Assembly (NCBI RefSeq): GCF_017377795.1
Contig: NZ_JAFRDR010000007.1
Location: 1-64,000, forward strand
From: Williamsia soli
GTDB lineage: Bacteria; Actinomycetota; Actinomycetes; Mycobacteriales; Mycobacteriaceae
DNA length: 64,000 nt
Reading direction: 5' to 3'
Shown here: positions 23,810 through 54,303 of the stretch, piece after piece
Numbering within the stretch: the stretch's first letter is position 1
How the letters are laid out: each line of letters opens with the position of its first letter
Program-made: the position numbers and the translations under genes
The notes under the pieces: generated by a model
Told to the model about the DNA's origin: nothing
Databases searched by the model: none
The model's input: only the letters and a program-made list of their open reading frames with translations

Positions 23810-23828
23810 TGAACTTAGCCAAGCCTAA
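23810..23828 (-). promoter_or_regulatory. IdeR/DmdR-like iron box 2 (mbtA-mbtI)
   Basis: On the minus strand this reads TTAGGCTTGGCTAAGTTCA, matching the same consensus at 14 of 19 positions. It follows box 1 after only 4 bases, so the two sites could bind regulator cooperatively, one for each direction of transcription. Confidence 0.78.
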
Positions 23829-23899
23829 GTGTTGCACGGTCGCGTGATGCGGTGAGCAGAGGATGTCATGAGCAAAGCATGGGCCGCGGGAGTGCCGCG

Positions 23900-27887: not shown

Positions 27888-27903
27888 AATGAGGAATACC
27901 GTC

Positions 27904-33392: not shown

Positions 33393-33427
33393 GTCGGGGG
33401 TGCTCCGTTCACGTGCATGGGGTCAAT

Positions 33428-33446
33428 GAACGAAAGCCTACGTCAA
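33428..33446 (-). promoter_or_regulatory. Weak iron-box-like site between mbtK and mbtT
   Basis: On the minus strand this reads TTGACGTAGGCTTTCGTTC, matching the iron-box consensus at about 10 of 19 positions with the central TAGGCT intact. It lies midway between the divergent mbtK- and mbtT-like starts, where a shared iron-responsive site is expected, but the match is poor. Confidence 0.3.
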
Positions 33447-33493
33447 GGCCTCGCGGCCTCCGCACCGCCGCCGAATATGAGGAGCACCACCCA

Positions 33494-34294
33494 ATGTCAC
33501 GTGATCTCGGATGGATCAGGCAATTCCACAAACCCGTCTCGGCTGACAATCCGCCTCTGCTGATCTTCCCGCATGCGGGAAGCGGCGCGTCGACCTACCG
33601 GGCGTTCTCCAAGCAGCTCAGCGCGGATCTCGATGTCGCGATCATCCAATACCCCGGTCGACAGGACCGCGCCCGCGAAGCACCGGCGCAGACCCTGCCT
33701 GAACTCGCCCGGGGGGCGTTCGGCGAGTTCGTGTCGTCCCGATGGAATCGACAGGTCCCGATCGCGGTCTTCGGACACAGCATGGGGGCGATCGTCGCGT
33801 TCGAATTCGTCCGGCTCGCCGAGGCCGCCGGTATCGAGGTCCGACTGCTCGGGGTCTCGGCCGCGGTCGCGCCGTCGCAGGTCGAGAATCTGCCGCCGCA
33901 CCCCACAGAAGACCCCGAGTTGCTCGCCCATCTGTCGGCACTGAACGGCACCGGCGGTGACGTGTTGGCCAGTGCTGATCTGATGAGGATGGCGTTGCCG
34001 GTCATGAAGATGGACTACCGCGCGTTCGACGCATACTCCTGCGCGGCAGACGTCACCGTCGCCGCCGAGATCCAGGCGCTGGGCGGGGCCGAAGACCCCT
34101 TCATCAAACCCCGCGAACTGTACGGCTGGTCCGCACACACCACCGGGGAGAGCGGGGTGAGCGTCTTCGACGGCGGCCACTTCTATCTGGACGAGAACCG
34201 GGATCCGATCGCAGAACTCCTGGCGCCCCAGCCGTCGGTGTCCCCAACCTCGGTGTCCCAAACCTCGGTGACCCAGACCTCGATGTACCGATAG
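33494..34294 (+). CDS. mbtT: Type II thioesterase, MbtT-like
   Basis: A 266-residue alpha/beta hydrolase of the type II thioesterase family that clears misprimed carrier domains. The start shows LLIFPHAGSGASTYRAFSKQ, the nucleophile elbow is FGHSMGAIVAFEF (Ser96), and GGHFYLDENR supplies the catalytic His. The ATG at 33494 (MSRDLGWIRQF) has GAGGAG ten bases upstream. The last 20 residues are three SV[ST][PQ]T pentapeptide repeats encoded by 15-base near-repeats, an odd tail not needed for the fold. It heads the mbtT-mbtC-mbtD run. Confidence 0.9.
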   Translation: MSRDLGWIRQFHKPVSADNPPLLIFPHAGSGASTYRAFSKQLSADLDVAIIQYPGRQDRAREAPAQTLPELARGAFGEFVSSRWNRQVPIAVFGHSMGAIVAFEFVRLAEAAGIEVRLLGVSAAVAPSQVENLPPHPTEDPELLAHLSALNGTGGDVLASADLMRMALPVMKMDYRAFDAYSCAADVTVAAEIQALGGAEDPFIKPRELYGWSAHTTGESGVSVFDGGHFYLDENRDPIAELLAPQPSVSPTSVSQTSVTQTSMYR

Positions 34295-34304: not shown

Positions 34305-35666
34305 ATGACCGATGACACAGCCGATCCCATCGTCATCTCCGGGATGGCCGTGGAGGCACCCGGTGGTATCGACGACCTCGGGTCGTTCTGGGACGCCCTG
34401 CGCGGCGGACACGAACTGATCGGTGCATTCCCCCGCAACCGGGACTGGGACATCGAGGAGGTCCTCGCGCTCGATCGCGTCGCCGGGTGGACGAAGGTCG
34501 CTGATGCCGGTGGGTTCCTCGACGCGGCAACCGAATTCGATCCGCTGTTCTTCGGCATCAGCCCCCGCGAGGCGGTCGCCATGGATCCGCAGCAGCGGGT
34601 GGCACTGCGGGTCGCCTGGCGTGCTCTCGAGCATGCGGGCATCAATCCCGGGGCGCTCGACGGTGAAGAGGTCGGTTGCTACATGGGCGTCTCGATCAGC
34701 GAGTACGGCCCTCGCGCCGCAGCGGTCAATGAGTTCAGCGGGCACCGCATCGCCGGTACCGCCCTCGGCGCCGCGAGCGGTCGGATCTCACACAGCCTCG
34801 GGCTCATCGGCCCCTCCGTCAGCGTCGACACCGCATGTGCGTCGTCGCTGACAGCCCTGCACCTGGCTGCGGGCGCGGTTCGCGGTGATGAGTGCGACTG
34901 GGCGATCGCCGGTGGTGTCTGCGTCATGGGTTCCCCGGCAGCCTTTTACGAGTTCTCCAAGAACAACGGTCTCGCCTCCGACGGGCACTGCCGTTCCTAC
35001 GCCGCCAACGCCACCGGCACCCTGTGGGGTGAGGGCGCCGGTGTCGTCATCGTGGAGCGCGAATCCCGGGCTCGGGCCATGGGGCACCGGGTGTACGGCA
35101 GGGTCGAAGCGACCCGTATCAACCACAACGGCAAAGGCATGCCCATCGTGGTGCCCAGTGCCTCGGCACAGGAGAAACTGATCCGAAAGACGTTGCTGGC
35201 AGCCCAAATCGAACCCCGCGAGGTCGGTTTGATCGAAGGACACGGGACAGGCACCCCGCTCGGTGATCCGATGGAACTGACCGCCTTGCAGAACACCTAC
35301 GGCAAGTCCGGTGCGTCTGAGGTGAAGCTCGGATCGGTCAAGTCGAACGCCGGGCACGCCCAGGCGGCATCCGGGATGTTGGGTCTGATCAAGGTGTTGC
35401 TGTGCGGCGATCACGGTCAGACGGCACCGAGCCTGTTCGCCGACGATCCCACGGACAAGGTCGACTGGGACGCTTCGGCCCTGCGTCTGGCCGACGGTCT
35501 CGATCACTGGGAGCCCACCAACGGCGTTCGATACGGCGCCGTTTCTTCCTTCGGGGTGTCCGGCACCAATGCCCACGCGATCATCGGAATGCCCGTGCCG
35601 GCTGACGTCGGTCCGCGGAGTCCGTCCCAACGTGCGAACACTGCCGCGGAGGTCTCACATGCCTAG
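34305..35666 (+). CDS. mbtC: MbtC-like stand-alone ketosynthase
   Basis: A 453-residue beta-ketoacyl synthase, one half of the split PKS that adds the beta-hydroxy acid unit of mycobactin-type siderophores. The active-site cysteine is in VDTACASSLTALHL (Cys178), and the two histidines lie in EGHGTGTPLGDPMEL and KSNAGHAQAASGML. Length is close to M. tuberculosis MbtC. The 3' end overlaps the mbtD-like gene by 8 bases, so the two polypeptides are probably made in equal amounts. Confidence 0.93.
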   Translation: MTDDTADPIVISGMAVEAPGGIDDLGSFWDALRGGHELIGAFPRNRDWDIEEVLALDRVAGWTKVADAGGFLDAATEFDPLFFGISPREAVAMDPQQRVALRVAWRALEHAGINPGALDGEEVGCYMGVSISEYGPRAAAVNEFSGHRIAGTALGAASGRISHSLGLIGPSVSVDTACASSLTALHLAAGAVRGDECDWAIAGGVCVMGSPAAFYEFSKNNGLASDGHCRSYAANATGTLWGEGAGVVIVERESRARAMGHRVYGRVEATRINHNGKGMPIVVPSASAQEKLIRKTLLAAQIEPREVGLIEGHGTGTPLGDPMELTALQNTYGKSGASEVKLGSVKSNAGHAQAASGMLGLIKVLLCGDHGQTAPSLFADDPTDKVDWDASALRLADGLDHWEPTNGVRYGAVSSFGVSGTNAHAIIGMPVPADVGPRSPSQRANTAAEVSHA

Positions 35667-38600
35667 CTACCGGTTGCCCGACGGCCGTGTCCCGGTGATC
35701 GTGTCCTCTGATTCGGCGGAGCTGTTGCGGACCGAGGCCGCATCCTTGGCCGACTACCTGCACCGGCACCCGGAGGTGACGGTCGGGGACGTGGCCTCGA
35801 TGCTGATGCGCACCCGGGTCGTCCGGCGACACCGGGCGATGGTCCTGGCCACCGACACCGCGCAGCTGACCGAAGCGCTCGAAGCCCTGGCCGAGAGTGC
35901 GGACCACGCGGACGTGGTCGTCGGGAGAGGCGCAGCTGCCAAGCGCACCACCGGATTCATCTTCCCGGGTCAGGGCAGCCAGCGACCGGGGATGGGCAGG
36001 CTGTTCTACGACCTCTCGCCGGTGTTCCGCGAGTCCGTCCACAACAGCAATGCGCTCTTCGCGGAGCTGTACGACATCTCGCCTCTGGATTACCTGCTCG
36101 GAGAGGAATCCGACGAGCGCGAGGACATCCGGATCGTCCAGCCGGCGTTGCTGATGCAGATGGTCGCGCTCGCGGAGATGTGGCGATCAGCAGGAGTGGA
36201 ACCGGCGACCACGGTCGGGCACAGCCAAGGCGAGATCGCTGCGGCGTACCTCTCCGGGGCGATGTCGTTGGCCGACGCCATCCACGTCGTGACCAGCCGG
36301 GCGAACCTGGTCGTCGAGTTCTCGCCGACGGGCTATTCGATGGCCGTCGTCGCCATCGACCGCGACGAATGTGAGGCGATGCTCGCCGCGAACTCCGGAT
36401 GGGCCGAGCTCTCCGTCGTGAATTCACCCCACATCCTGTGCATCTCGGGTGACCGCGGCACGGTCATCGAAATGGTCGAAGCCCTGACAGCGCAGGGCAA
36501 GTTCGCCAAGGAGATCCGGGTCGACTATCCCGCGCACACATCGATAGTGGCCAAGTTCCGTACCAAGCTCGGCGAGGCGATCGGCGACAAGCTCGAGAAC
36601 CAGGCGTTTCTCGAGACGGACATCGGTTGTGTCGGTGGCACGCTCGGCAAGCAGGTCACGACCGACTACCTGCTCTCCGACTATTGGTTCTGGAATCTGC
36701 GCAATCCGGTCCGGTTCGATCTCGCGGTCGGGGCGGCGATCATCGGTGGCGCCGACACGTTCATCGAGATCGCCGAACATCCGACCCTGATGCTGGCCAT
36801 CGGCGAGAACATCAGCGTCACCGCACCTGATGCGACGATCCCGGTCATCGGCACCTCGCGCCGTAGCTCTGTCGACCTCTCCGAGTTCACGAGAAATCTC
36901 GCCACGGTCGCGGTCAACGACACCGGATACCGCTGGGAAGCACTGGCTGTCGCTGACGAAGCGGTCCCGCCGCCATTGCCCCTGCGAGACTTTCCGGGGG
37001 TGCAGATGAAGGCGACGTCGCTGTGGGCGTCTCACCTCGCTCCAGGCGAGAAGCCCCGTGGTGCGGCAATGACGCCCGAGTATCCGCGTCGTGTGGTCGA
37101 GACCTGGACGCGGCTGCAGCGTCGCAAGCTGGGTCCACCGCGATCCCTGCTCATCGTCGAACACGGCGATGGCCGTCCCGATTTCGCTGCAGGGCTCATG
37201 GCCACGGCCGCCGACCACGGCGCGACCGCCACCCTGTACGAGGCGGGGGTTGTCGAGGGAACGTTCGATTCGGTGGTTGTCGTGCTACCGGCCCTGCCGA
37301 GCGTCGACCTCCCGACCGCAGTGGCCGGATTGGCACAGCTCTTCGGAGACCCGCAGTGGCTGCCCGACGTCGCGAGGAGTGCCGGCGAATGCTGGCTGGT
37401 CACGGTGAACGGCGAGTCCGTCCTGCCCGACGACGAGCTCCCGCAGCTGTTCGGCGCAGGCGCCGCGGCGGGATTCCGTTGTCTCTCCGCCGAATTCCCG
37501 ACCACGGTGTTCCGGCACCTGGATCTTCCGGCGGACGCGCCCGCGGGAACGGTTGTCGGTGCGTTGCACACGGCAGGCGAATCGGACCTCGCGCTGCGTG
37601 GGGGCAAGATCTACGCCAAACGACTGGTCTACGCAGAGTCCGATGCGCCCGGAACCGACCCACGGCCCGCGACCGAGGATCTGAGTCACGTCGTGATCGT
37701 CGGCGGCACCGGCAAACTAGGACTCGAGTTCTGCGAGCACTACGCACGCGCGGGTGCCGAGCGGATCACTCTGTTGAGCCGCACCGGCGCGAGTGCGGCC
37801 ATCGAACCGCGACTGCGGGCGATCCGGGCGCTCGGAGATGCTGACATCGTCGTCGCCTCCTGCGACGTCGGCGAAGAGTCCTCCGTGCTCCAGTTCGCTG
37901 CGGCACACGAGAACCTTCCGGCGGGGGTGCTCGTCCATGCCGCCGTCAATTACGTCGACGCAGGACTGGACGACATCACGCCGGAGATGGTCACCGAGGC
38001 CGCCTCCTCGAAGGTGCTGGGCATCGCCAACGTGCTGCGATCGTTCCCGCTCACCGCTGACTGCCGGGTGCTGCTGTGTTCGTCGATCGCGGCGTCACTG
38101 GGCGGTCGCGGTCAGATCCTGTACGCGGTGACCAATCGGCTTCTCGATATCCTGGCCCGCACGCTGCGGGTCCAGGGCATCGACGCCTACGCGCTGCAGT
38201 GGGGACTGTGGAGTGTGCAAGGTCCGCTCGATCAGGCGGCCGTCGACAGGGTCGAGGGCGCGGGCGTCGTCCCGATGAGGCCGGCAGATGCGCTGGCAGT
38301 CGCCTTCGAGGGCAGGCAGCGTGACTCGATCATCGCCGCGGCGGATTGGGCGCAGGTGCATGCCCTGGTATCGGCGTTCGGGCATGGATCGCTGATCGAG
38401 GGGCTTGTCCCGGAACCGGTGGTGATGGCAACCCCGCCCCCGGTTGTCGCAACCGGTCCACGTGCTCCGGCCACCGAGTTGCCTGCGCTCTCGTTCGCAG
38501 AACTCGTTGTCGCCGAACTGAACCGGGTGATGGGCATCGACGGAGGCGATATCGACCGGTCGATGCCGCTGGTGGCGCTCGGACTCGACTCGCTGCAGGC

Positions 38601-38730
38601 CCTCGACTTCCGGAAACGGGTGAAGGCAGAACTGAACCGGGACCTTCCGATCGAGGCCATCCTTGGTGGCGCGTCGTTGGACGAGGTCGTGGCGTTGATG
38701 GACGAGCAGTCCCGGAGCCGGGTCGGCTGA
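35659..38730 (+). CDS. mbtD: MbtD-like PKS: acyltransferase-ketoreductase-ACP
   Basis: A 1,023-residue polyketide synthase complementing the MbtC-like ketosynthase. It has an acyltransferase domain (GFIFPGQGSQRPGMG, active site VGHSQGEIAAAYLSG with Ser189) and a ketoreductase (VVIVGGTGKLGLEFCEHYAR from about residue 680, catalytic LLCSSIAASLGG and YAVTNRLLD). An acyl carrier domain (LGLDSLQALDFRKR, Ser978) closes it. There is no dehydratase, so the product is a 3-hydroxyacyl unit. The start ATG lies inside the mbtC end. A promoter with an iron-box-like site follows, so this gene likely ends the transcript. Confidence 0.93.
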   Translation: MPSYRLPDGRVPVIVSSDSAELLRTEAASLADYLHRHPEVTVGDVASMLMRTRVVRRHRAMVLATDTAQLTEALEALAESADHADVVVGRGAAAKRTTGFIFPGQGSQRPGMGRLFYDLSPVFRESVHNSNALFAELYDISPLDYLLGEESDEREDIRIVQPALLMQMVALAEMWRSAGVEPATTVGHSQGEIAAAYLSGAMSLADAIHVVTSRANLVVEFSPTGYSMAVVAIDRDECEAMLAANSGWAELSVVNSPHILCISGDRGTVIEMVEALTAQGKFAKEIRVDYPAHTSIVAKFRTKLGEAIGDKLENQAFLETDIGCVGGTLGKQVTTDYLLSDYWFWNLRNPVRFDLAVGAAIIGGADTFIEIAEHPTLMLAIGENISVTAPDATIPVIGTSRRSSVDLSEFTRNLATVAVNDTGYRWEALAVADEAVPPPLPLRDFPGVQMKATSLWASHLAPGEKPRGAAMTPEYPRRVVETWTRLQRRKLGPPRSLLIVEHGDGRPDFAAGLMATAADHGATATLYEAGVVEGTFDSVVVVLPALPSVDLPTAVAGLAQLFGDPQWLPDVARSAGECWLVTVNGESVLPDDELPQLFGAGAAAGFRCLSAEFPTTVFRHLDLPADAPAGTVVGALHTAGESDLALRGGKIYAKRLVYAESDAPGTDPRPATEDLSHVVIVGGTGKLGLEFCEHYARAGAERITLLSRTGASAAIEPRLRAIRALGDADIVVASCDVGEESSVLQFAAAHENLPAGVLVHAAVNYVDAGLDDITPEMVTEAASSKVLGIANVLRSFPLTADCRVLLCSSIAASLGGRGQILYAVTNRLLDILARTLRVQGIDAYALQWGLWSVQGPLDQAAVDRVEGAGVVPMRPADALAVAFEGRQRDSIIAAADWAQVHALVSAFGHGSLIEGLVPEPVVMATPPPVVATGPRAPATELPALSFAELVVAELNRVMGIDGGDIDRSMPLVALGLDSLQALDFRKRVKAELNRDLPIEAILGGASLDEVVALMDEQSRSRVG

Positions 38731-39668: not shown

Positions 39669-42600
39669 ATGTCAGAAGATGTGATTGCGCGACGAAAAGA
39701 GCTGCTGCGCCGAAGGTTGCGTGAACGCGGACTGAGTGCAGAGACCGCGCCGGTACCGGTCCGGGTACCGGGCGAACGCTCGCCGCTGGCTCCCGGCCAG
39801 CAGCGGCTGTGGTTCGTCCAACACCGCGACCCGGCCGACACCACGCTCAATGTGTGTGTGGCATACCGACTCACGGGTGCTCTGGACCCGAACAAGCTGC
39901 GTGCGACGGTGAATGCGGTCGTCGAGCGACACGAGATCCTGCGCACCTCCTACGGCGTCGACGACTCGGGAACTCCGTACCAGGTCGCCGCGGCGCACGT
40001 GGACGTGCCGTGGAGCGAACACGATCTGTCCGAGCTCCCCGAGCAGGGCCGGGCCCGCCGACTCGAGGTGCTCGCACGACGACAGTTCTCTCGCTCATTC
40101 GACCTGAGCTCGGACGCGCTCCTGCGGATCAGCCTGGTGCGCACAGATGTCGACGAGTGGGCGTTCATCTTCGTGGTGCATCACATCTGTTGGGACGACG
40201 ATTCTTGGGAGGTGTTCTTCGGCGAGGTGAACGCCGCCTACAACGCCGGATCCGAGCCCCAGGCCCCGACGGCACAGTTCGTCGACGTCGAGGTGCTCGG
40301 TCGACGCCTGAGCGAAGTCGACGACACGACGGGTATCGAATACTGGCGCTCGAAGTTGCGCCCGCCGCCCGAGTGGCTCGAACTCCCGGCCGAGAATGCA
40401 GGTCCCGCAGCGAAGACCGCAGGGCACGGCAGGCGCGATATCCCGTCCGAGGTGATCGACGCCGTCACCCGGTACGCGAGGGAGCAGTCGAGCACACCGT
40501 TCGCGGTGCTGCTGGCGGCGTTCAACGCTGTTGTCAATCGCTACACCGGTAGCGACGACTTCCTGGTCGCCGTACCGATCGTGGATCGCGCCGCGTCTGC
40601 GCAGTCGCTGATCGGCTACTTCGGCAACAGCCTGCTGTTGCGGTCGAGTGTGCGTCCCGACGGGACCTTCGCGGATCTGGTCGCCGCCACCCGTGACGAG
40701 GCGCTCGGCGGATTCGCGCACCAGCACATCGGGGTCGATCGCGTGGTCCGGGAGATCAACCCCGACCGTGTCAGCGGCAGCGATGGGCTCGAACACATTG
40801 TGCGACTCAGCTTCTCCACCCGAAAGAGTGCGGTCGGCTTCGCGCTGGACGACGTGCGTGCCGAGCAACTGGAGCTGACCAGTTCGGTGACCCAGCTGCC
40901 CCTCGGGCTGACTGTGGTGCTCGGCGACGACGGAGCGCATGTGGAGGCGGAATACTTCGCCGATGTACTCGACGGACGGATAGTCGACCGGATGCTCGCC
41001 GGTTACGTGGATCTGCTCCGCGGCGCCGTGGCCGAGCCGGACCGGCGGATCGGTGAGCTGGACATCCTCGGTGACGAACGGGCCGAGGTGATCGAACGAT
41101 CGCTGGGCGAGCAGGTCCCCTCGGCCGCGACAACGTTGCCCGCGATGATCGAGGCCCGGGTCGCTGCGCATCCGGACCACCCTGCGGTCACCGACGATCA
41201 CGTCGTGTTGACGTACCAGGACCTCAACTGTCGCGCAAATCGTCTGGCGCACTGGTTGATCGGTACGCATAGCATCGGTCCCGAGGACATCGTCGCCCTC
41301 GAGGTCGCGGCCTCGGTGGAGTTCGTCGTCGCGGCGACAGCGGTCCTCAAGGCAGGTGCGGCGTACCTGCCGATCGACCCGTCCTACCCGGGTGACCGCA
41401 TCGCCTTCATGATCGAGGACGCGAATCCGAAACTCGTACTGGGCGCAGCCGAACTCGCAGCAGCAGAGCGCGCTGCGGGCGGCCTCTCGGTTGCCGATCC
41501 CGTGGATGCGGACAGGGTGACGCCCCTGCTGCCGGAGGCGCTTGCGTACGTCATCTACACGTCGGGCTCGACCGGTAAGCCGAAAGGTGTCTCGGTACCG
41601 CACGTGGCCATCGCGGACCACCTGTCGGGTTTTCACGCTCAGTTCGGGATGACCGCGGACGACCGGCTCGTGCAGACGTCGTCGGTGAGTTTCGATGCGT
41701 CGTTGTTCGAGGTTTTCTGCACCCTGACCCTCGGCGCCACTCTTGTTGTTCCCAAACCCGATGCCCTCCAAGATATTCCGTACATGGCAGATCTGCTGGT
41801 GCGTCAGCGGGTGACGGTCATGCACATGGTCCCGTCGATGCTGAGCATGTTCCTGCTACTGCCGGGTGTGAACGAATGGACCACGCTGCGGCAGATCCCG
41901 GTCGGCGGAGAGGCGTTGCCCGGTGAGGTGGCGGACAAGTTCGGGACGGTGTTCGACGCGCAACTGCGTAACAACTACGGTCCGACCGAAGCCGTGGTGG
42001 CCGCAACGCATTACCCGGTCGATGGCCCGCAGGGTGTGCGAGTGGTCCCCATCGGGGTGCCCAACCGGAATGTGTCGGTATATCTGCTCGATCGAACACT
42101 GCAGCTTGTTCCGGCCGGAGTCGTCGGTGAGATCTACATCGGCGGTGATCAGCTTGCGCGCAGTTATCACGGCCGCCCGGCGCTGACTGCGGAACGGTTT
42201 GTCGCCGATCCGATGCGACCCGGTGGCAGGCTGTACCGCACCGGGGATCTGGCTCGGCGCAACGTCGATGGCGATATCGAGTTCGTCGGCCGAGCAGACG
42301 AGCAGGTGAAGATTCGTGGATTCCGGATCGAACTCGGTGAGGTCGAGGCCGCGCTGTCCACCCACCCGGCAGTCGCCCGTGCGCTCGTGATCGTGACCGA
42401 GGATCCCAACGTGGGACCCGCGCTGGCCGCCTACCTCGTCGGTGAGCGCGGCGCGGTGGTGGACATCGATTCGGTGCGCGAACACGCAACCGCGGTCCTG
42501 CCGGACTACATGGTGCCCAGCGCATTCGCCGTGATCGACGAGGTGCCGCTGACCGCGCACGGAAAACTGGACAGGGACGCGCTTCCGGACCCGGCCGACG

Positions 42601-45551
42601 CGGCGCCGCGAGTCTTCCGCGCGCCGGCGACGGGCACCGAGATCCGCGTGGCGGCGCTGTTCACGCAGCTGTTCGGCCGGGATTCCATCGGTGCCGACGA
42701 TTCGTTCTTCGAACTCGGTGGGCACTCGCTGCTCGCCGCCCGCCTGGTGACGCAGATCCGTACCGAGTTCGGGGTGGACATCGACGTACGCGCGCCCTTC
42801 GACACCCCCACGGTCGCCGGTCTGGCCTCGTGGCTCGTCGCGCAGGTGCGCGATGAGTTCGGTATCGACCTCGATGCTGCTGACGACGACTACGAACCGA
42901 TCGGTGGCGCAACGACACCGCAACGGCCGCCGTTGGTGAAGCGGGATCGTCCTGAACGCGTTCCCTTGTCGTACTCGCAGCTCGCGATGTGGTTCGCGCG
43001 GCGTTTCGAGGGTGCGAGTGCTGTGGGAAACATTCCCATGGCGGTGCGAATCGACGGCCCGGTGGACGCGACTGCGCTCACTGCCGCCATGGGCGATGTG
43101 GTGGCGCGCCACGAGGCCCTGCGCACGACGTTTCCCGAACACGAGGGTATTCCGTACCAACTGATCGGGCCGATCGCCTCTGTGCCGCTACCGATCACGG
43201 TGCTCGGCGGTGAGTCGGTCGCCGAATCGGAGATGGAGCTGGCCGCGCACCTCGAGGCGATCGCCCAGTACAACTTCGCAGTCGAATCCGAGCCGCTACT
43301 GCGCGCGCACCTCTTTGTGCTCGGTGACGACGCGCACGTGCTGTCGATCCTGGTGCATCACATGGTCATCGACCACTGGTCGTTCGGGGTGCTGTTGTCC
43401 GATCTCGGTATCGCCTACCGACATCGCCTCGCGCACGGGACGGGCCCTGACTGGGTGCAGCACCCGATCGAGTACGCCGATTACGCATTGTGGCAGCGTG
43501 ACCTGTTCGATGGCGATGGAGCGTCGGTCGAGGTGGGTGCGGCCCAGATCGATTATTGGCGAACCACCTTGTCAGGTGCACCCGACGAGATCACCGTGGC
43601 GCCAGATCACCCACGACCGGCGGTACTCGGTAAGACGGGTGAAGTGGTGTCGTTCTCGGTGCCGGCGGAACTGCGTACCCGCCTACGGGAGATGGCCGAC
43701 ACGATCGGCGTCAGCGAGTTCATGGTGCTGCAATCGGCCGTCGCGACCCTGCTGCACAAGCTCGGTGGCGGCGACGACATCGCGATCGGTACGCCCGTCG
43801 CCGGCCGAACCGACGAGGTGACCACGGATCTGGTGGGACTGTTCGCGAACATGGTCGTGTTGCGCAACATCCTCGGTGGTGAACTCTCGCTCCGCGAGGT
43901 CCTGCTGCGGGGACGCGACGTCGCACTCGGTGCCTACAGCAATCAGGACGTGCCCATCGAGCGCCTGGTCGAAGCACTCAACCCGCGGCGTTCCCGTTCC
44001 CGCAATCCACTGTTCCAGGTCATGATGCATTTCCGGGACGACTACAGCGCCCCGGACAGCCAGGCGTTCACCGAATCCGGGGACACCACGCTCACTCTGC
44101 TGCCGGTGGAGTTCGAGACCTCGTTCCTGGATCTGAACATCATCTTCGCTTCACAATCAGGCGGTGGACTGGGTGCACGTCTGGTCGCCGCGGGCGATCT
44201 GTACACCCGGGAGGGTGCGGAATTACTCGCTGCGCGGCTGATGCGTGTGCTGGCGGCATTCGCCGACGACGTCGATCAACAGGTCCGGCGCATGGACGTG
44301 CAGTCGCCGGACGAACGGGAGCGGGTGCTCGGCACCTACAGTCGCGGCGCAGACGTGACTCCCGGCGCTCTTGCTGCGCGACTGAGCGCTGTTGGACGGC
44401 AGAGCCCTGATTCGGTTGCCGTGGTGCGTGGTTCGCAGTCCCTGACCTATGGGGAACTGCGGTCCGGCGATGCTGCTGGATTCGCCGACGTCCGCGAGGT
44501 GTTCGCGCGCGCGGCCGGAGGCGACGGGCCCGCCTCGACCGGTGGGCCGGATGCAGTCGACGGGCCTGTCGGCGTGCGACTGATCGCGGCGTCGCCCGCG
44601 TCGCCTGCGGGCACTGCCGAATTGCTCGCAGGACTCGCCGGGTCGGCAACAGTGGTCCTGGCAACCGATGCAGAGCGAGATGATCCGGTTGCGCTGGCAC
44701 ATCTCATCGCCAGGCATTCGGCCGAGCGGGTCGTCGCGGAGCCAGAGGTGTTGGCGCTCCTTGCTCATTCAGGCACATCCGTGATGCCGTCGGTACGCAG
44801 CTGGGTTGCGTCGTCGCCGGGCGGACCGGCTTCCCTGGCCGAGGTGCTCTCGGCACTGTCCGAGAGATCGACCAGTCATTACTACTATGCGCCTGCAGAT
44901 TTCGGATCTGTGGCCGTGGTGGGTCAGATGGGCGGGAAGCGGTCGGGCCGTCCGGCGCCCGGGGCGTCGGTGCTGATCCTCGACCAGTCGCTGGCGCCGA
45001 CACCGGTCGGTGTGTTCGGTGAGGTGTACTTGGCGGGTACGGAGACCGCCGTCGGTGAGTGGGTGTCGAATCCATACGCGCCCGGGTCGCGGTTGCTGCG
45101 TAGCGGGGATCGAGCCAAGTGGGACCACGACGGACGCCTGATTTTCGAGATCACCGCCGCGGACGTGGCAGTCGCCGGTGTCGGAGGTGGCGGGGAAGCT
45201 CCCCAGACCGCCACGGAGAAGGCGATGTGCGACCTGTTGGGGGAACTTCTCGAGATCGACGACGTGGGCCGCGACGACAACTTCTTCGCGCTCGGCGGCG
45301 ACAGCGTGATCTCCATTCAGATGGCCGGGCGGGCGGCGGCCGACGGCCTGCCACTGACCCCGCAGATGATCTTCGATCATCACTCGATCGCAGAACTCGC
45401 GGCCGCCATCGACGACGCGCTCGCCAATCCGCCAGTCGAGGTGGAGGCCGCCGCGGAGCCGGTGACCCTCACCTATGCACCGATGAGTGCGTCCGGACTC
45501 AGCGACGACGCACTGGCCGCTCTCACGGCCAACTGGAAACCCGGATCATGA
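39669..45551 (+). CDS. mbtE: MbtE-like NRPS with an eroded second adenylation domain
   Basis: A 1,960-residue synthetase with order C-A-PCP-C-(A*)-PCP. C1 has HHICWDD (H171), A1 has [11 protein letters not shown] (Y630), [34 protein letters not shown] and AHGKLDRDA, and PCP1 is LGGHSLLAA (S1020). C2 has HHMVIDH (H1230). From about residue 1550 an adenylation-like segment follows ([24 protein letters not shown]) but the phosphate loop, the YGPTE motif and the catalytic lysine are missing and it is only about 300 residues long. PCP2 is LGGDSVISI (S1879). By analogy with MbtE the first module loads the acyl-hydroxylysine; module 2 cannot activate its own substrate. Its stop overlaps mbtF by 4 bases. 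Confidence 0.92.
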
Positions 45552-48500
45552 CCGGAGGGGTGGTCGATCGGTCGGCGCCGCCTGCCATCGAGGATGTGCT
45601 CGCGCTCAGCCCTTTGCAGGAGGGTCTGTTCTCGCTGTCGAAGATCGCCGGTGACGATCTGGACCTGTACTCCATGCAGTTCATCGTCGAGATCAGCGGT
45701 CCGGTGGATGTGGCGTTGCTACGCCGCAGCGTCGACGTGATCTTCCAACGGCATCCGAACCTCCGGGTGTCGTTCTACGACCGCGACATCCCGACGCCCG
45801 TGCAGATCGTGCCGACGTGGGTGGACGTCCCGTGGTCCGAGCGTGACGCCGACCCCGCCGAATTCGATGCGATCGCCGAGGCGGAGCGGCGCACGAACTT
45901 CGACCTGTCCTCGGGTCCTGCGTTGCGGGTGGTCCTGGTCGACTTCGGCAACCAGCGCGGCAGCCGCAGCGACGACGCGCCGGGCCACGGGGGCCGCCGT
46001 CGATTGCTGATCACGGCGCACCACATCTTGATGGACGGCTGGGCCGTCGCGATCTTCTTCCAAGAGTTGCTCGCACTGTACGAGGCGGGCGGCGAGTCGG
46101 CCTCGTTGCCCGCGCCGCGGCCCTACCGCGACTACATCGGTTGGCTCGCTGCTCAGGATTCGGTGGCGGCGACCGACGCGTGGGCGACCTACCTCGCCCG
46201 GTTGAGTGCTCCTCTGATGCTCGCCGAAGGGGCGGTGGCGCCAGCTGATGCAGTACCGAGGCGTACTCGTGTGCAACTGGATTCGCCTGACACCACTCGG
46301 CTGATCACCTGGGCGCGCACCAACGGGATCACCATCAACACCGCGGTCCAGTTCGCCTGGGCAGTGGTGCTGGGCCGTCTCACCGACCGCCGCGACGTGG
46401 TCTTCGGAACCACGATCTCGGGTCGCCCCGATGCGTTGCCCGGCGCCGAGACGATGATCGGACTGTTCATCAACACGGTGCCTTCGGTCGTCGACATCGA
46501 CCCGGCCGGAACTGTTCTCGAACTGTGTAAAAGGCTGCAACGCGAGTCGGCGACGATGCGTGAGCTCGGCTTCCTCAGCCTGTCCGCAGTGCAGCGGGCC
46601 GGCGGCCGGGGCAGTTTGTTCGACACCCTGTTCGTGTTCGAGAACGCCCCGATCGGCGCCGTGACCGAACCCATCAGCCTCGGCGACGGCACCCGATTCC
46701 TACCGGTGGCGATGGAAAGCCTCGCCCACTACCCACTGACCATTGCCGCGTACCAGCTCGGTGTCAATCTCGTGGTGATGACCGAAGCCATCGACGGCGC
46801 GTTGCCGCACCTGCCACCGGCCGAGATCGCGGAACGAATCCTGCTGGTGCTCCGGCAACTACCGGATGCAGCGGATTCAGGTCCCGATCATCTGGAGGTC
46901 CGCCTGGCTGATGAGGTCACGGGCGACGAGCTGTCGGTATCGGCACCGGACGCGGTACCGAGCGGCACCATCGCGGACATCTTCGCGCGGCAGGTGGACG
47001 CGACACCCGACGCGCCGGCGTTGACCAGCACGCTTCGCGACTACACCTATGCAGAGCTGCACGACGACGTCATGCGTCTGGCGAATGAGCTGGTCGGCCG
47101 CGGTGTCGGTCCTGAGTCGGTGGTGGCGGTGGCCCTCGACAGATCTGCCGAATCGATCGTGACGATCTTCGCGGCGTTGTCCGCCGGTGCCGCCTACGTC
47201 CCGATCGATCTGTCGCTCCCGGCACCCCGGATCAGTTCGATTCTGCAACAATCGAATCCGAGGATCATCGTCACCGCGGGCCCACACATCGACCTGCTCG
47301 AGGCGGCCGGTGCGGGTCGTACGCAGCGCCTGGTCCTGGACGACCCGGCGACGTCTGCGGCACTCGGTGTCCAGTCGACGTCACGCCCGAAAGGTGTTGC
47401 GACGCCCGACCTTGCCGCCTATCTCATCTTCACGTCGGGTTCGACCGGTGAGCCGAAGGGTGTCATCGGTACGAATGGCGCAGTCGCAAGCTATTTCGTG
47501 GACCACCGCGATCACGTTTATGCGCCGGCCACGGCCCGGCTCGGCCGGAAACTCCGGATCGCGCATGCCTGGTCGCTGAGTTTCGATGCGTCCTGGCAGC
47601 CGATGATCGGATTGCTCGACGGGCACAGCGTGCACCTGTTCGACGGAGCGCAGATGCGTGATGCGGAGCAACTCGTGTCCGGTCTGGTCGCCCACCGGAT
47701 CGACATGATCGACACCTCGCCGTCGATGTTCGGTCAACTCGCTGCCGCGGGCATTCTCGGGAGGCCGGAGGCGGAGCTCGACGGCACGACTGGCGCGCGA
47801 TTGTCGGTGCTGGCACTCGGTGGGGAAGCGATCAGTCAGGCTCTGTGGCAACAGTTACAGGCATTCGAGGATGTCGACGTCTACAACTGTTACGGCCCGA
47901 CCGAGACCACCGTGGAGGCGCTGGTCGCCCCGATAGCCGACTCTGATGTCCCGACGGTCGGTATCCCTGCCGATCGCATGACCGCCCATGTCCTGGATTC
48001 CAGGTTGCGCCCGGTACCGCGCGGCGTCGTCGGCGAACTGTACCTGGCCGGAGCCCAGGTCACCAGAGGCTATGTGGGACAACCGGGTGTGACCGCAGGG
48101 CGCTTCGTCGCCGATCCCGCCGCGCGCGGTGGCCGGATGTACCGGACGGGCGATCTGGTCCGACATCTCCCAGACGGAAACCTCACGTTCCTCGGACGTG
48201 CCGACAGCCAGGTGAAGATCCGCGGTTTCCGGATCGAGATCGGCGAGATCGAAACGGCGATGCGCCGGTTGCCCGGGGTCGAGACCGCCGCGGTCGTGGT
48301 GTTGCGGCGTCCGACGGGTGCGACCCTGGTCGGGTTCGTGGTCGGGGTGAGCGTGCCTGTCGCGCAGGCACGTTCGGCCCTGGCCGAGACACTGCCGACC
48401 CACATGCTGCCCGCCCGGGTGCTGACCGTGCCGGCGTTGCCGATGACCTCGAACGGCAAATTGGACGAGGCGGCGCTGATGACACTGGCGCGGGAGGCCC

Positions 48501-50182
48501 TGGCCGGTTCGTCGGGACAACAAGCGCAACCGGCGACGGACACAGAACGTCTGCTGTGCATGGTGTTCGGTGAGCTGGTGGACGGTCCGGCTCCTGGTGT
48601 CGACGAAGACTTCTTCGACCTCGGTATGGACAGCATCGTGGCCATGTCCCTGGTGAACTTGTTGCGACGGCAGGACGTTCAGGTGAGTCCGCGCCTCGTG
48701 CTGGCGAATCCGTCGGTACGGACCCTGGCTGCGGCGATCGACAACGGCGTGTTCGTGGGATCCGACGACGAAGGCGAACACGGCGGTCCGGGTGAGGTCG
48801 TCGCGCTGCCGGTTGTCCGCTGGATGTACGACTTCGGGCGGTTCCGGCGGTTCACGCAGACCACCCTCATCGCCCTGCCGAAGGGGTTGTCCGACGCCGA
48901 ACTCGAAGCGACGCTGCAGGCGATCCTGGATTCTCACGACATGCTGCGGTCGCAGTTGCAGGACACCGGGACCGGGTATCAGCTGATCACCAGGACCGTC
49001 GGGTCGGTGCGTGCGACCGACATCCTGACCACGGTGTCGGTCGGTGACGACCTTGCGGCCGGCGTGTACCGTGCAGCGCCGACCGCGATGGACCGCATCG
49101 ATCCGATGGCCGGGACCATGGTCGCCGCGGTGCGCCTGGTCGGAGGTGGCGATGACGAGGGTGATGTCCTCCTTCTCGCGATCCACCACCTCGCCACCGA
49201 TGCGGTGTCGTGGCACGTGCTGTTCGGAGACCTCGCCGAGTGCGGTCGGCAGCTGAGGTCCGGGACCCTGCCCACCCTCGGGTCGGAGTCCACGTCGTAC
49301 CGGCGGTTCTCGCACCTGCTGGCCGAACGCAGCGGCACAGCGGAGGTGCTCGAGCAGCGTCCGTATTGGGCCGTACAGGTCGGCGGGCCGGACCCGATCA
49401 TCGGTGCGCGAGCGGTGAATCCGGACGGCGACACCTGGACCTCGCTCCGCACCACAGCAGCGCACACGTCCGTCGATCAGACCGCGGCCGTTCTCGCATT
49501 ACTCGGCGGAGCGATCGGGATGAGGGAGTTCCTGCTCACCGCGCTCACGCTGACGATCAACACCTGGCGCACCGTCAACGGCCAGGACAAGTCGGCCGGC
49601 GCCTTCATCGCCCTGGAAGGCCATGGGCGCGAAGACGAGACCGTCGGTGTGGGTGTCGACACGTCACAGACCGTGGGCTGGTTCACGAGCGTGTTCCCGG
49701 TCCGCCTCGGTGCCGGCGCTGATGCAGTGGACCTCGACGTCGCGGCCAGAGAACCGGAATCCGTTCGTGCGCTGATCGATTCGGTGACAGAACACATCGC
49801 GGGTATACCCAACCGGGGACTCGACTACGGTCTGCTGCGGCATTTCGAGCGGGTGCCTGAACTGGTCGCGTCGACCGATCCGCAGGTGGAGTTCAACTAT
49901 CTCGGCCGGTTCGACCTCAGCTCCGCCGGGGCCTCCGACACACCCGAGCCATGGGCACCCATCACCGATCTCGACCTCAACGACCGGCTCCCGACAGCGC
50001 CAGAGCCCGAGCTTCCGCTGCGGTACGCACTGGACGTGGTCTCGGTGGTGCGTGGCACACCCCTGGGACCGCAACTGGTCACGAGCTGGCGGTGGAGTGA
50101 CCAGCTCATGGTGGAGGCGGACGCAGACCGGTTGGCCGAGATCTGGCAGCGTGCGCTGTCCGCCGTGGCTGCCGCACTCTAG
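45548..50182 (+). CDS. mbtF: MbtF-like NRPS: C-A-PCP with terminal E-type domain
   Basis: A 1,544-residue synthetase starting inside the end of the mbtE-like gene (ATGA). It has a condensation domain ([19 protein letters not shown] at H158, and FENAP) and an adenylation domain ([11 protein letters not shown] at F628, [49 protein letters not shown]). A PCP ([10 protein letters not shown]1029) follows. The terminal domain is of epimerisation type ([10 protein letters not shown] at H1213, [27 protein letters not shown]). In mycobactin assembly MbtF adds the last lysine, released as a seven-membered lactam. No thioesterase is fused, so release probably depends on the terminal domain or spontaneous cyclisation. 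Confidence 0.92.
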
Positions 50183-50314: not shown

Positions 50315-51226
50315 ATGATCTACGGCGTCCTGGCCGCACTTTTCGCCTGCATCGCGTACGGCACCTCGTCGGTGTTGCAGGCCTACGGTGCCCGCAAGTC
50401 CAAGGGCGACGCCCTCTCGCGCGGCGAGACCGCGGGCCTGGAGACCGCGACGGGTGGGCCGACGTTGCGAGCGACGATGGCTGCGGTCCTCACCACGGCC
50501 TTCATCGCCGGTACCTGCCTCGACGTCGTCGGGTTCGCGGGCAACGCCGTGGGCTCGCGCTTGGCGCCGCTGTTCTTGTCGCAGACCATCGTCAGCGCGT
50601 ACCTGGTGGTCACGGCGATCCTCGGGATCTTCGTCCTCGGCATCACGTTGCTGCCCCGCGACTGGATCGCGATCGGTGCGGTGGTCGCGGCCCTGTGCGC
50701 GATCGGGCTGTCGGCGGATCAGGACGGCCACGGACACGACGGCACCTGGTTCCACTGGGGTGTGCTGATCGCGGCGGTCGTGTTGTTCGCGATCTCGTCG
50801 GCACTCGTCCGGTGGCTCGGATCCCGCGCCGCCATCGCTGCCGGACTGTGTGCCGGTGCGATGTTCGGCGTGGTCGCGGTGTCGGTGCGCATCCTGCACG
50901 GCATCTCCGACTTCGACATCGTCGAGATCCTCAGCGACCCGGCCGCATACGCCATCGCGCTCGCCGGGGTCGGTGGTTATTACCTCAACACAGTTGCGCT
51001 GCAACTCGGTTCGGTGAACTCGGCAACGGCCGCGGTGGTGGTCGGCGAGACGGTCATCCCGTCGATCATCGGCATCATCTGGCTCGGCGACGATGCGCTA
51101 CCCGGTCGCACCTGGCTGGCAGTGGTCGGTTTCGTGGTCGCGGTGGCCGGTGCGATGGTCATCGCCTGGTCGGGAGCCGCCCAGGCGGCCAACGAGGCAG
51201 AGGCCGGTGTGGATGCGAGGACCTGA
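50315..51226 (+). CDS. DMT-superfamily multi-helix membrane protein
   Basis: A 303-residue protein with about nine hydrophobic segments (YGVLAALFACIAYGTSSVLQ, LAPLFLSQTIVSAYLVVTAI, GVLIAAVVLFAISSALV, TAAVVVGETVIPSIIGIIWL). It resembles drug/metabolite transporter-like proteins common in actinobacteria. It follows mbtF by 132 bases and is convergent with the SagB-type gene, its last 68 bases overlapping that gene's end. A link to the siderophore is possible but only positional. Substrate unknown. Confidence 0.8.
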   Translation: MIYGVLAALFACIAYGTSSVLQAYGARKSKGDALSRGETAGLETATGGPTLRATMAAVLTTAFIAGTCLDVVGFAGNAVGSRLAPLFLSQTIVSAYLVVTAILGIFVLGITLLPRDWIAIGAVVAALCAIGLSADQDGHGHDGTWFHWGVLIAAVVLFAISSALVRWLGSRAAIAAGLCAGAMFGVVAVSVRILHGISDFDIVEILSDPAAYAIALAGVGGYYLNTVALQLGSVNSATAAVVVGETVIPSIIGIIWLGDDALPGRTWLAVVGFVVAVAGAMVIAWSGAAQAANEAEAGVDART

Positions 51227-52619
51227 CCTCTCGGTGACGGTCGTTCAGCGTTTCGGGGGTGCCGAGTACGAGGCTGCCCAGCGCGCATTCGGTCAGCTCG
51301 TCGACACCGGCGAGTTCGGCGAAAGCCGCGGTGTCGCAGTAGCCCTGGGCGACGGTACCCAGCCCCATGTCGGTGGCGACCAACGACATCGTCTGCGTGA
51401 GCACCCCGACATGTTTGAGCATCACCGCGTAGGGGATCTGCTCGTAGGTCCACATGATCCGACCGACGCGGGCCGCGAAGACGAAGAGGATCTGCGGTAG
51501 TTGGCCGCCGGAGAGGGTGAGCGACGACGGGGTCAGCAACCGGCCGATCGCGGCATGCTCGATGCCGGTGACCGGACGCAGGACGTGGTCGAACGAGTCG
51601 TAGTGATACATGCCTGCAGACAATCCCTGGCATTCGCGTACAACGGGATACACCTCGAGTTCGTACAAACCCCCGCCGGATGGATACGGCCGGGACGGAA
51701 ATTCCTCGGTGCCGATCACCCGCAGCTCGCGGTTGCGGTGCGTGCGATAGAGGAACTCGCCGAGCTGGTCGAGGGTCGGGGTCGAGGTGGTGTCGAAGTC
51801 GCGACACGATCTCCGATCCTCGATGGCGCTGGTGAGGGCATCCCCGGTGACGCGGAGTTCGTCGAGGTCCACGTCCTTCAGTGCGACCGCCGGACCCGGA
51901 TATTCCGGCTTGCGCGCAGGTAGTGGGGGATACGAGCCCGCCGCCCACTTGGTCGGGCCGAACCGTCCCCAATCCTTGGCGCGTACACCGAAGGTGCTCT
52001 TGCGGTGAAACCACAACTCGTGGGCGCCCCAGCTACGGGTGGCGAACCCGGACTCTTCGGCGTCGTCCTGCGTGGTGAAACCCGCCCACGTCAGGTCTCG
52101 GGCGAGTTCGGCCACAACCGGGGGTACCGGCCGATCGACCCCGGGCAGCCCGGTGAGCACCGCCAGCACACCCGCGTCGTGGATCTCGATGTCGCACCAC
52201 GACAACGGATGTTCGGCCACGCACCGACCGTCGACCCGATGGATCACCGTGAACTTCGAGAGCTGTTCCACGGCAGTGCACTCGTGCGAGACCGGCGGCC
52301 GGGGCGGGGGAGTGTCGAAGGGCCGCAGCGTGTACAGATCGGCGCCCGCCCACCGCATCGTGACCGTGAGCAGCCCCTGACCGACCAGTTGGTCGAGGAT
52401 CCCGGTCACCGCAGGATCAGCCCCTGCACCCGGAAGTTCGCTCAGGGCCGGTCGACCCCTGCCCAGAGCTTTGAGTGTCTGCATCTGTGCCGGCGTCAGT
52501 CCGGTCAGTCGCTGCTTCGCGGGCAACAGCACCGCAACGCCTCCGGAAGCGGTCATCGCGGACGCCCCCGCACGGAAGGCGTAGGCGAACTCGTGGCCGG
52601 TCACCGGTGCTGCCGTCAC
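51159..52619 (-). CDS. SagB-type FMN dehydrogenase (putative azoline oxidase)
   Basis: A 486-residue protein of the SagB/ThcOx/McbC nitroreductase family. The first 260 residues are the variable SagB N-terminal region. The nitroreductase domain starts at SAIEDRRSCRDFDTTST and shows RPYPSGGGLYELEVYPVVRE, GLSAGMYHYDSFDHVLRPV, VGVLTQTMSLVATDMGLGTV and ALGSLVLGTP. Family members oxidise oxazolines or thiazolines to oxazoles or thiazoles with FMN, usually in peptide-derived natural products. No YcaO cyclodehydratase or precursor peptide is present here, but the MbtB-like cyclisation domain makes an azoline, so it is the likely substrate. Start at 52619 overlaps the upstream lipoprotein gene by 4 bases, making SIP, lipoprotein and SagB one iron-controlled operon. 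Confidence 0.88.
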   Translation of the reverse strand: MTAAPVTGHEFAYAFRAGASAMTASGGVAVLLPAKQRLTGLTPAQMQTLKALGRGRPALSELPGAGADPAVTGILDQLVGQGLLTVTMRWAGADLYTLRPFDTPPPRPPVSHECTAVEQLSKFTVIHRVDGRCVAEHPLSWCDIEIHDAGVLAVLTGLPGVDRPVPPVVAELARDLTWAGFTTQDDAEESGFATRSWGAHELWFHRKSTFGVRAKDWGRFGPTKWAAGSYPPLPARKPEYPGPAVALKDVDLDELRVTGDALTSAIEDRRSCRDFDTTSTPTLDQLGEFLYRTHRNRELRVIGTEEFPSRPYPSGGGLYELEVYPVVRECQGLSAGMYHYDSFDHVLRPVTGIEHAAIGRLLTPSSLTLSGGQLPQILFVFAARVGRIMWTYEQIPYAVMLKHVGVLTQTMSLVATDMGLGTVAQGYCDTAAFAELAGVDELTECALGSLVLGTPETLNDRHREVRSSHPHRPLPRWPPGRLPTRR

Positions 52620-53590
52620 TGCGCGGCGTTCTCGAATGCGGGGGTCATCTTCTCCAGTACGAACGGAAGCGACAGCGGGGACGGCTGATTGATGGCGCTG
52701 ACCTCGGCAACACTGAGTTCGGCAACGGCATTCTTCTTCACCGAGGTGAGATTCGAATAGCCGGGCAATGTCTTCATCTTCTCGTTGAGGGCCGGTGAGT
52801 TGGCGGCGAGGATCATCATGTCCGACTGCAGTTCCGGGACGTTCTCGGTGGAGATCGGGAACCGTGGCTGCCCGTCGCGTTCGAAGATCTTCTGAAGCTC
52901 CGGCGCCATGGTCATGCCCATCGAGGTGAACACCTCTGCCGCGCCGTCGGCGGGATCACCGAAGACCTGGATCTGGTCGTTGCTGAGTATCCAGGCGAGT
53001 GCGAAGCTCTTGCCCTGCAATCCCGGATTGGCTTTCTTGATCCCGTCGATCTTGCTGTTGACGCCATCGATGATCTGCTGCGCCTTTTCGGGCTCCCGGA
53101 GCACGGTGCCCATGAAGACGACCATTTCCTCCCAAGGGTCCACCTGCTTGCCGGTGATGGAAGGGATTGTCGGGGCCAGCTTGCTCAGCTTGGCGAAGGT
53201 CTCTGTCTGGTCGCCGAAATCCGTCGAGACGATGAGGTCGGGATCCACGGCCGCGACCTGGCTGGCCACGTCGCGCGAGGGATCGATGGCCTCGGAGGAT
53301 TCGAGTCGGTCTCCGACCCAGGGCGTCGGGGCCTTGGTCAGCAGTTCCACGTTGTCGAGGTACGCGACGGGGGTGACGCCGAAAGCCAGTGCCACATCGG
53401 TCCATTGGGTACCGATGGTGACGATGTTCTCGGGGACGCCGTTGATCGTGACCTGGCCCATCGGGGTGTTCACCTGGATGGGTGCCCCGTTGTCCTTGTC
53501 CTCGTCCGGTGAACTGCAGGCCGTGACAGCGAGAGTCAGCGCCGCGAGGAGGGCGAGCACTACGGTCAGGCGGTTGGAACGGGCTCGCAT
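52616..53590 (-). CDS. Iron-siderophore ABC transporter substrate-binding lipoprotein
   Basis: A FecB/FepB-type class III binding protein of 324 residues. It has a signal peptide (LTVVLALLAALTLAVTAC) with lipobox cysteine, then VTIGTQWTDVALAFGVTPVA, VAAVDPDLIVSTDF and PTIPSITGKQVDPWEEMVVF, typical of the two-lobed fold. It should capture ferric siderophore at the cell surface. No matching permease or ATPase gene is in the window. The start used is ATG at 53590; an in-frame ATG at 53611 that overlaps the stop of the SIP gene (ATGA) would add 7 residues and is equally possible. Confidence 0.9.
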   Translation of the reverse strand: MRARSNRLTVVLALLAALTLAVTACSSPDEDKDNGAPIQVNTPMGQVTINGVPENIVTIGTQWTDVALAFGVTPVAYLDNVELLTKAPTPWVGDRLESSEAIDPSRDVASQVAAVDPDLIVSTDFGDQTETFAKLSKLAPTIPSITGKQVDPWEEMVVFMGTVLREPEKAQQIIDGVNSKIDGIKKANPGLQGKSFALAWILSNDQIQVFGDPADGAAEVFTSMGMTMAPELQKIFERDGQPRFPISTENVPELQSDMMILAANSPALNEKMKTLPGYSNLTSVKKNAVAELSVAEVSAINQPSPLSLPFVLEKMTPAFENAAQ

Positions 53591-53607: not shown

Positions 53608-54303
53608 TCATTTCCAGTAGGCCTGGGACTTGACCGATGTCTTGGGGAGTTTGCTCCTGAGTGACTTCGTGATGTCTCTGGTGGTGTAGAACTCGCAGGC
53701 CACCCATCCGAACGCGCCCGGGGCAACCGCCAACTGTGCGGCCGTGTCGCGCAGGGCTTGTCCTTTGGTGCCGCGCTCGACCCACTCCACGGTGGTCGCG
53801 GGCGTCGCTTTCAGAGGAAGGTTCTTGTCCGATTCGTGCTGCCACTCGAGCCAGACCCGGGCAGGGACATCGCCGATCGCGTCGAGCAGGGAATTGATCG
53901 CGGGCACGGCGGCCGGATCGCCGAAGATGACGTACTCCGACGGAGCCGGGTCGGGGATCGCGAACTTCGAGCCCATGACGGTCGCGCCGATGGTCTCGCC
54001 GACGTCGGCGGCCACGGCCCAGTTCGCGGCAGGACCGTCGTGAATCGCGAACTCGATGTCGAAGGTGTCGGCCGTCTCGTCCGGGTCGACCAGGGTGTAT
54101 CCGCGCTGCTGTTGCTTGTCGCCGTTCGGTATCCACAACCGGATCCACTGGGTCGGGTGGCGGTCGTGGTGACCGAGCAGTCCGCCGGCCTGGAAACTGA
54201 TCCGGAGGTAACTGTCCGTGACCTGCTGTTTGCCGGTCACGGTCAGTACGTAGTCGTCTGCGCCGAGTGCCTTGAGTACCAGCCCTTGTAGTCCCCTGCT
54301 CAT
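53608..54303 (-). CDS. Siderophore-interacting protein (FAD-dependent ferric reductase)
   Basis: A 231-residue SIP/ViuB-family flavoprotein that reduces ferric siderophores to release iron in the cytoplasm. The FAD-binding half contains QWIRLWIPNGDKQQQRGYTL (RxYTL motif) and FDIEFAIHDGPAANWA, and the NAD(P)H half YVIFGDPAAVPAINSLLDAI and VWLEWQHES, ending in a basic KSQAYWK tail. First gene of a leftward operon with the binding lipoprotein and the SagB-type oxidase. A perfect palindrome matching the iron box sits 7 bases before its ATG, so iron repression is expected. Confidence 0.92.
   Translation of the reverse strand: MSRGLQGLVLKALGADDYVLTVTGKQQVTDSYLRISFQAGGLLGHHDRHPTQWIRLWIPNGDKQQQRGYTLVDPDETADTFDIEFAIHDGPAANWAVAADVGETIGATVMGSKFAIPDPAPSEYVIFGDPAAVPAINSLLDAIGDVPARVWLEWQHESDKNLPLKATPATTVEWVERGTKGQALRDTAAQLAVAPGAFGWVACEFYTTRDITKSLRSKLPKTSVKSQAYWK

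Follow-up and report, generated by a model that had tools for sequence, protein, structure and literature searches.

We analysed a 64,000-nucleotide stretch of Williamsia soli DNA (assembly GCF_017377795.1, contig NZ_JAFRDR010000007.1, positions 1 to 64,000; hereafter the window), with the focus on a predicted sagB-family azoline oxidase gene that lies among siderophore genes (Table 1). The gene is a minus-strand open reading frame (ORF) with a GTG start codon and encodes a protein of 486 aa. The protein scored 141.4 bits against the SagB model TIGR03605 (cut-off 78.4), and it was also above cut-off with the Pfam Nitroreductase family (64 bits) and with the ThcOx N-terminal domain PF22767 (34 bits). 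A preliminary description of the window had placed a SagB/McbC-family flavin mononucleotide (FMN) dehydrogenase here, and both the family and the coordinates were borne out. It had named Gordonia, Nocardia and Rhodococcus for a search of gene neighbourhoods; the nearest named relatives of the window turned out to be from Williamsia itself, and the strong matches to SagB in other genera were 47-58% identical. The C-terminus of the window SagB (51159-51250) is 29 residues longer than in close Williamsia relatives, and the gene overlaps the 3' end of a convergent gene (50315-51226) by 68 bp. In one close relative (G006), the stretch corresponding to this extension is a separate match.

The sagB gene is third in a minus-strand run, behind the genes for a siderophore-interacting flavoprotein (SIP) and an iron-siderophore substrate-binding lipoprotein. 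The SIP and lipoprotein genes are separated by 17 bp, and the lipoprotein and sagB genes share 4 bp. The preliminary description had given this overlap as ATGA; its length was right and its letters are GTGA. Because of this spacing, the three genes would form one transcript. The pattern that we take to be the iron-box consensus occurred 10 times when both strands of the window were counted, at five places in three clusters; the expectation from shuffled sequences was 0.12. The palindrome before the SIP gene, together with the gene order, supports the earlier description of an iron-box-led run shared with SIP, and iron control of the sagB run is likely.

The cluster adjoining sagB is, as judged from its genes, of the nocobactin type. 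The polyketide synthase (PKS) scored 1381.5 bits with the NbtC model NF037941 (cut-off 1150), compared with 733.7 bits with the MbtD model (cut-off 1150). The rest of the nocobactin set was also present, namely an NbtF-like nonribosomal peptide synthetase (NRPS) with thiolation, cyclisation, adenylation and thiolation domains (T-Cy-A-T), a lysine hydroxylase, salicylate supply and two more NRPS, the last two judged by their homologues. The Cy domain that had been noted at the locus by its D-x4-D-x2-S pattern was confirmed in the T-Cy-A-T protein as D-MIAG-D-AT-S (DMIAGDATS). The best solved relative of this protein was dihydroaeruginoic acid synthetase (736 bits). The thiC gene (20183-21940) adjoins the cluster.

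Table 1. Features of the sagB locus and the adjoining cluster in the window
Feature	Position	Strand	Basis
AMP-binding aryl-activating enzyme, salicylate--AMP ligase-like (probable substrate)	22069..23769	-	domain match
Iron-box-like sites preceding the gene at 23852 (salicylate synthase-like)	23787..23828	.	pattern match
Chorismate-binding enzyme, salicylate synthase-like (probable product)	23852..25264	+	domain match
NbtF/MbtB-like T-Cy-A-T NRPS; Cy motif at 28600-28626	27889..31392	+	domains, profile match
Lysine/ornithine N-hydroxylase, NbtG-like	31396..32712	+	domain match
Thioesterase	33386..34294	+	domain match
Ketosynthase, presumably NbtB-like	34305..35666	+	domain match
NbtC polyketide synthase (AT-KR-T)	35569..38730	+	NF037941
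NRPS-like ORF, presumably NbtD/E-like	39669..45551	+	homologues beside SagB at other loci only
NRPS-like ORF, presumably NbtD/E-like; listed ORF overlaps the 39669..45551 ORF	45119..50182	+	homologues at other loci only
sagB-family FMN azoline oxidase, 486 aa	51159..52619	-	TIGR03605, Pfam, ThcOx 5lq4 profile 299 bits
W390-T391-Y392; Tyr corresponds to BmdC Tyr260, Thr replaces the Lys of ThcOx and BmdC	51444..51452	-	alignment
FMN-binding motif R269-R-S271-C-R273, aligned to BmdC Arg145/Arg146/Ser147/Arg149	51801..51815	-	alignment
Iron-siderophore substrate-binding lipoprotein (Peripla_BP_2), lipobox-like VTAC, overlaps sagB	52616..53590	-	domain match
SIP-type siderophore-interacting flavoprotein, first in the run	53608..54303	-	domain match
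Iron-box-like palindrome, 5 bp upstream of the SIP start codon	54309..54327	.	pattern match

The window SagB was compared with solved structures by sequence profiles. The best match was ThcOx/CyaGox, a cyanobactin oxidase (5lq4; profile positions 35-449 of 451), followed by BmdC (55-57 bits) and then by McbC of microcin B17 (6gos, 41 bits), which is of the same FMN dehydrogenase family. ThcOx is the closest solved sequence and differs in having a Lys-Tyr active site and, according to the excerpts available of the BmdC study, a substrate that is a ribosomally synthesized and post-translationally modified peptide (RiPP) (PMC8795117); in the same source McbC likewise has a RiPP substrate and is described as having no N-terminal domain. 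BmdC, the oxidase of bacillamide synthetase (7ly4-7ly7), resembles the window SagB in being a stand-alone FMN oxidase with an N-terminal domain like a RiPP recognition element; its substrate is an azoline formed by the Cy domain of an NRPS (PMC8795117), as is proposed for the window SagB. It differs in its thiazoline rather than oxazoline substrate, its length of 336 aa, its Lys before the Tyr and its low score to the window SagB. The Arg and Ser residues reported to bind FMN in BmdC (Arg145, Arg146, Ser147 and Arg149), as well as Tyr260, its proposed base (PMC8795117), align with the window SagB. R269, S271 and R273 were unvarying in 21 of 21 aligned sequences, and the second Arg of the motif, at the position of BmdC Arg146, was variable. 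For the active-site motif, 66 rows were aligned, from which five YcaO-linked rows, the short row L104 and the odd rows of G163 and G193 were removed. In the remaining 58 rows of the siderophore clade, of which two duplicate a genome under another identifier and one is the orphan copy of G016, the catalytic Tyr was retained throughout (58/58).

The distribution of SagB was then assessed in a family sample of 401 genomes. SagB matched at 1e-25 in 50 genomes and strongly, with at least 370 bits, in 46. Of the 46 genomes with a strong SagB, 45 also held an NbtC-type PKS (Fisher p ~3e-36, not corrected for kinship), for which we required an NbtC-model score of at least 850 bits; the PKS was on the same contig in 42 and within 30 kb in 40. 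Matches below 850 bits were called MbtD-like, a threshold of our own. G008 and G304 were scored by summing the bits of two pieces and G376, G133 and G300 by the printed total; second pieces of NbtC in G008, G304, G376 and G300 and of SagB in G151 were omitted from the tally. The co-occurrence with Cy-domain siderophore clusters on which the earlier proposal depended was therefore found. In the window's genus, sagB was present in eight of nine genomes, and the same eight carried an NbtC-type PKS, which exceeded the cut-off in seven and lay in two pieces in the other. The remaining genome (G001) lacked SagB and NbtC, and searches for NbtF and for the lipoprotein found no relative there at our thresholds. 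SagB was absent from all 39 genomes that scored below 850 bits, which comprised 38 Mycobacterium genomes and G021, a 66% complete genome whose match is a contig-end fragment that could be NbtC and was kept out of the 38. Within Mycobacterium, SagB occurred in four of the five NbtC-type genomes, compared with none of the 38 that had only a lower-scoring MbtD-like match. Two of these four SagB-bearing genomes had an MbtD-like match as well (G321, G353) and two had none at 1e-150 (G089, G252). Order-wide, 11 of 397 genomes matched SagB at 1e-60, eight of them in the window's family and three outside it, these with less than 300 bits. Partial SagB copies also stood beside nocobactin genes, one covering residues 10-189 (L104, in G211) and one in two frames (L099, in G151).

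We consider it roughly 87% probable that the window SagB is an FMN azoline oxidase that stands alone, acts in trans and serves the biosynthesis of a nocobactin-type siderophore. In Nocardia, Männle et al. (2020, PMC7413640; seen as excerpts) reported phenoxazole products where sagB lies beside the nocobactin cluster and phenoxazolines where sagB is absent. The Nocardia SagB (subfamilies I, III, V and VII) is like the window SagB in gene type, cluster type and adjacent transporters, and in the proposed oxidation of a hydroxyphenyl-oxazoline (PMC7413640); the window differs in its host, Williamsia, where the system is known from genes alone. The co-occurrence with NbtC and the oxazole/oxazoline split in Nocardia (PMC7413640) together support the claim of the preliminary description that SagB converts a hydroxyphenyl-oxazoline to an oxazole, giving a nocobactin-like product. 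Its suggestion that a SagB protein acting on an NRPS product would be a novel case did not hold, as Männle et al. state this idea for Nocardia in the excerpts available and the relative BmdC acts on an NRPS azoline. The predicted role is thus already published for Nocardia, another genus in the family. As far as the literature surveyed goes, the new elements are its occurrence in Williamsia, the broader counts, the spread into mycobacteria and plasmids, and the replaced Lys. Among the matches listed in searches of titles and abstracts, with most subscription journals outside the scope, there was no measured siderophore product of Williamsia, no work on this gene and no report on SagB in mycobacteria.

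In the proposed pathway, the NbtF-like T-Cy-A-T enzyme would couple salicylate to Ser or Thr and form a 2-hydroxyphenyl-oxazoline on its carrier domain. SagB, presumably produced under iron starvation alongside the uptake genes, would convert this ring to the oxazole in a two-electron oxidation that uses FMN and in which Tyr392 is the likely base. If BmdC is a guide, SagB would most likely act before the ring leaves the assembly line. An oxazole siderophore is accordingly predicted for this Williamsia strain. In the published rule, sagB goes with an oxazole and its absence with an oxazoline. Our results carry this rule over to Williamsia and, on the evidence of gene context, to Mycobacterium, and the rule gives a simple mass-spectrometric prediction.

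Several observations weigh against the assignment of SagB to oxazole formation. Two Nocardia strains with SagB-type clusters (subfamilies III and VII) are reported, in the excerpts available, as strains in which no nocobactin was found (PMC7413640). Only 45 of the 80 NbtC-type genomes carried a strong SagB, the other 35 (among them G211, with its short copy) having none; these 35 fit oxazoline producers. One strong SagB genome (G016) had neither an NbtC-type PKS nor an NbtF match. Its orphan sagB (L096) lies near transposase and integrase genes, SIP and thiC, with no nocobactin genes found there, and looks like the remnant of a lost cluster. Two further genomes, G163 (L101) and G193 (L102), have a lipoprotein-SagB pair and an altered motif, with Ser before the Tyr in the former (D-S-Y) and Ser before His in the latter (D-S-H); neither genome had an NbtC match, and an NbtF-like NRPS is on a separate contig. 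The active site itself also departs from that of the studied enzymes. Lys beside the Tyr is important in RiPP dehydrogenases. Where ThcOx and BmdC have this Lys, the window SagB has Thr, and the residue in this position was Thr in 50, Ser in 5, Ala in 2, Gly in 1 and Lys in none of the 58 siderophore-clade rows, so that an altered mechanism without this Lys is possible. The five YcaO-linked rows had Lys in four cases and Thr in one, that of Micromonospora, and Thr alone is therefore not diagnostic. We treated the Lys site as variable because the family model and the published Nocardia chemistry still fit the family. The conserved loss of this Lys makes the lineage a useful natural variant for studying how azoline dehydrogenases work.

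The position of sagB in the same gene run as SIP and the lipoprotein is a further point against, and it favours an alternative in which SagB serves uptake and works with these two proteins to free iron from imported ferric siderophore by reducing or modifying it. Nitroreductase-fold flavoproteins can reduce many substrates. Flanks were examined for 45 of the 46 strong genomes (all but G008) over about 9-10 kb per side, less at contig ends (short flanks at L039, L041, L092, L106 and L109), and here too a same-strand lipoprotein gene lay within 450 bp of SagB in 33 of 41 non-mycobacterial genomes. An NRPS match of at least 400 bits, in turn, was present within the flanks of 34 of the 45 SagB genes. 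The mycobacteria argue against a role in uptake: at 11 named mycobacterial loci sagB lies tail to tail with a Cy-bearing NRPS at 0-40 bp (eight loci) or with another NRPS at 150-231 bp (three loci), and in four of four sampled mycobacterial genomes it likewise faces an NRPS tail to tail, one genome being in both sets. The flanks examined in both sets contained no relative of the lipoprotein or of SIP. We also searched for the lipoprotein in 39 genomes, namely the 35 NbtC-type genomes without a strong SagB together with G163, G193, G016 and G001, and found relatives at 1e-25 in 32. Among the 35, a relative was present in 30 and reached at least 200 bits in 27, so that the uptake genes there do without SagB; the weak matches that were all that G375, G059 and G177 had may be unrelated binding proteins. 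Taken together, the mycobacterial loci without the lipoprotein and the lipoprotein in genomes without SagB indicate that the partner common across genera is the nocobactin assembly line. The published split between oxazole and oxazoline products likewise tracks sagB (PMC7413640, excerpts), and we regard a role of SagB in uptake as improbable.

It is more improbable still that the window SagB belongs to a RiPP pathway making a thiazole/oxazole-modified peptide and stands beside the siderophore genes by chance, although the SagB family is named after RiPP enzymes and the genome does hold a YcaO. The sole YcaO match of the genome is on another contig (C4), near a separate SagB-domain protein of 246 aa (SagB model 122.9 bits). 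With a single YcaO query, which a divergent YcaO could escape, no YcaO above chance was detected near the window sagB or any of the 45 strong SagB genes, whereas the SagB relatives of Lentzea and Micromonospora, the second copy of G364 and that of G348 each had a YcaO match nearby. The absence of YcaO beside sagB noted in the preliminary description was thus borne out within the reach of this query. Chance-level matches (E 0.065 to 0.62) at L089, L011, L031, L083 and L097 were disregarded, and a YcaO beside L103 (50 bits), found in one comparison, was missed in the other neighbourhood scan, which is therefore incompletely sensitive. The co-occurrence with NbtC, far above chance, also speaks against a RiPP role. 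If SagB does act in the nocobactin pathway as we favour, a remaining question is that of timing, and it is doubtful that oxidation waits until the siderophore is finished and released instead of taking place on the carrier-bound ring. Late action would suit the position of sagB with the uptake genes and outside the NRPS gene run, and action on the assembly line was shown for BmdC in its own pathway only. BmdC, as the closest studied NRPS case, nevertheless acted in trans during assembly on an NRPS-tethered thiazoline and left the released product unconverted, according to the excerpts available (PMC8795117).

The SagB clade extends to slow-growing mycobacteria. In a quick tree of SagB, in which the placement of the long YcaO-linked rows is unsure, the 15 mycobacterial rows formed one group with a support of 100. 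As this group nests inside a larger group of genomes from genera g22, which is probably Nocardia, and g19, the tree suggests that the cluster was transferred into Mycobacterium. Five Mycobacterium avium/intracellulare plasmid records (NZ_AP012556.1, NZ_CP059000.1, NZ_CP076857.1, NZ_CP076859.1 and NZ_CP023152.1) carry a SagB (48% identical) and an NbtF-like NRPS (56-57% identical), with 54 bp between the two matches, and NbtC is reported on the pMAH135 plasmid group (PMC11877719, excerpts). On a narrow balance, we favour a history in which a distinct SagB lineage moved out of RiPP chemistry and took up work on siderophore assembly lines, its Lys giving way to small residues. Entire nocobactin clusters, SagB included, would then have spread from Nocardia-like hosts to slow-growing mycobacteria and to plasmids of M. 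avium/intracellulare, and some mycobacteria would as a result make an oxazole nocobactin beside or instead of the oxazoline mycobactin.

A Williamsia-like locus was also present in a record titled Kitasatospora arboriphila NRRL B-24581 (L033), whose label may be wrong. On contig C4 of the W. soli genome (L113, G000:C4:68000-87900; positions 9341-12615), the YcaO gene scored 164 bits with PF02624 and 218.0 with the SagD model, just below the cut-off. The gene for the 246-aa SagB-domain protein at this locus has Lys-Tyr in its motif, a gene resembling iron-siderophore permeases (best models FhuB-type, below cut-off) lies some 3 kb away, and the locus is possibly a small azole RiPP locus, perhaps metal-linked.

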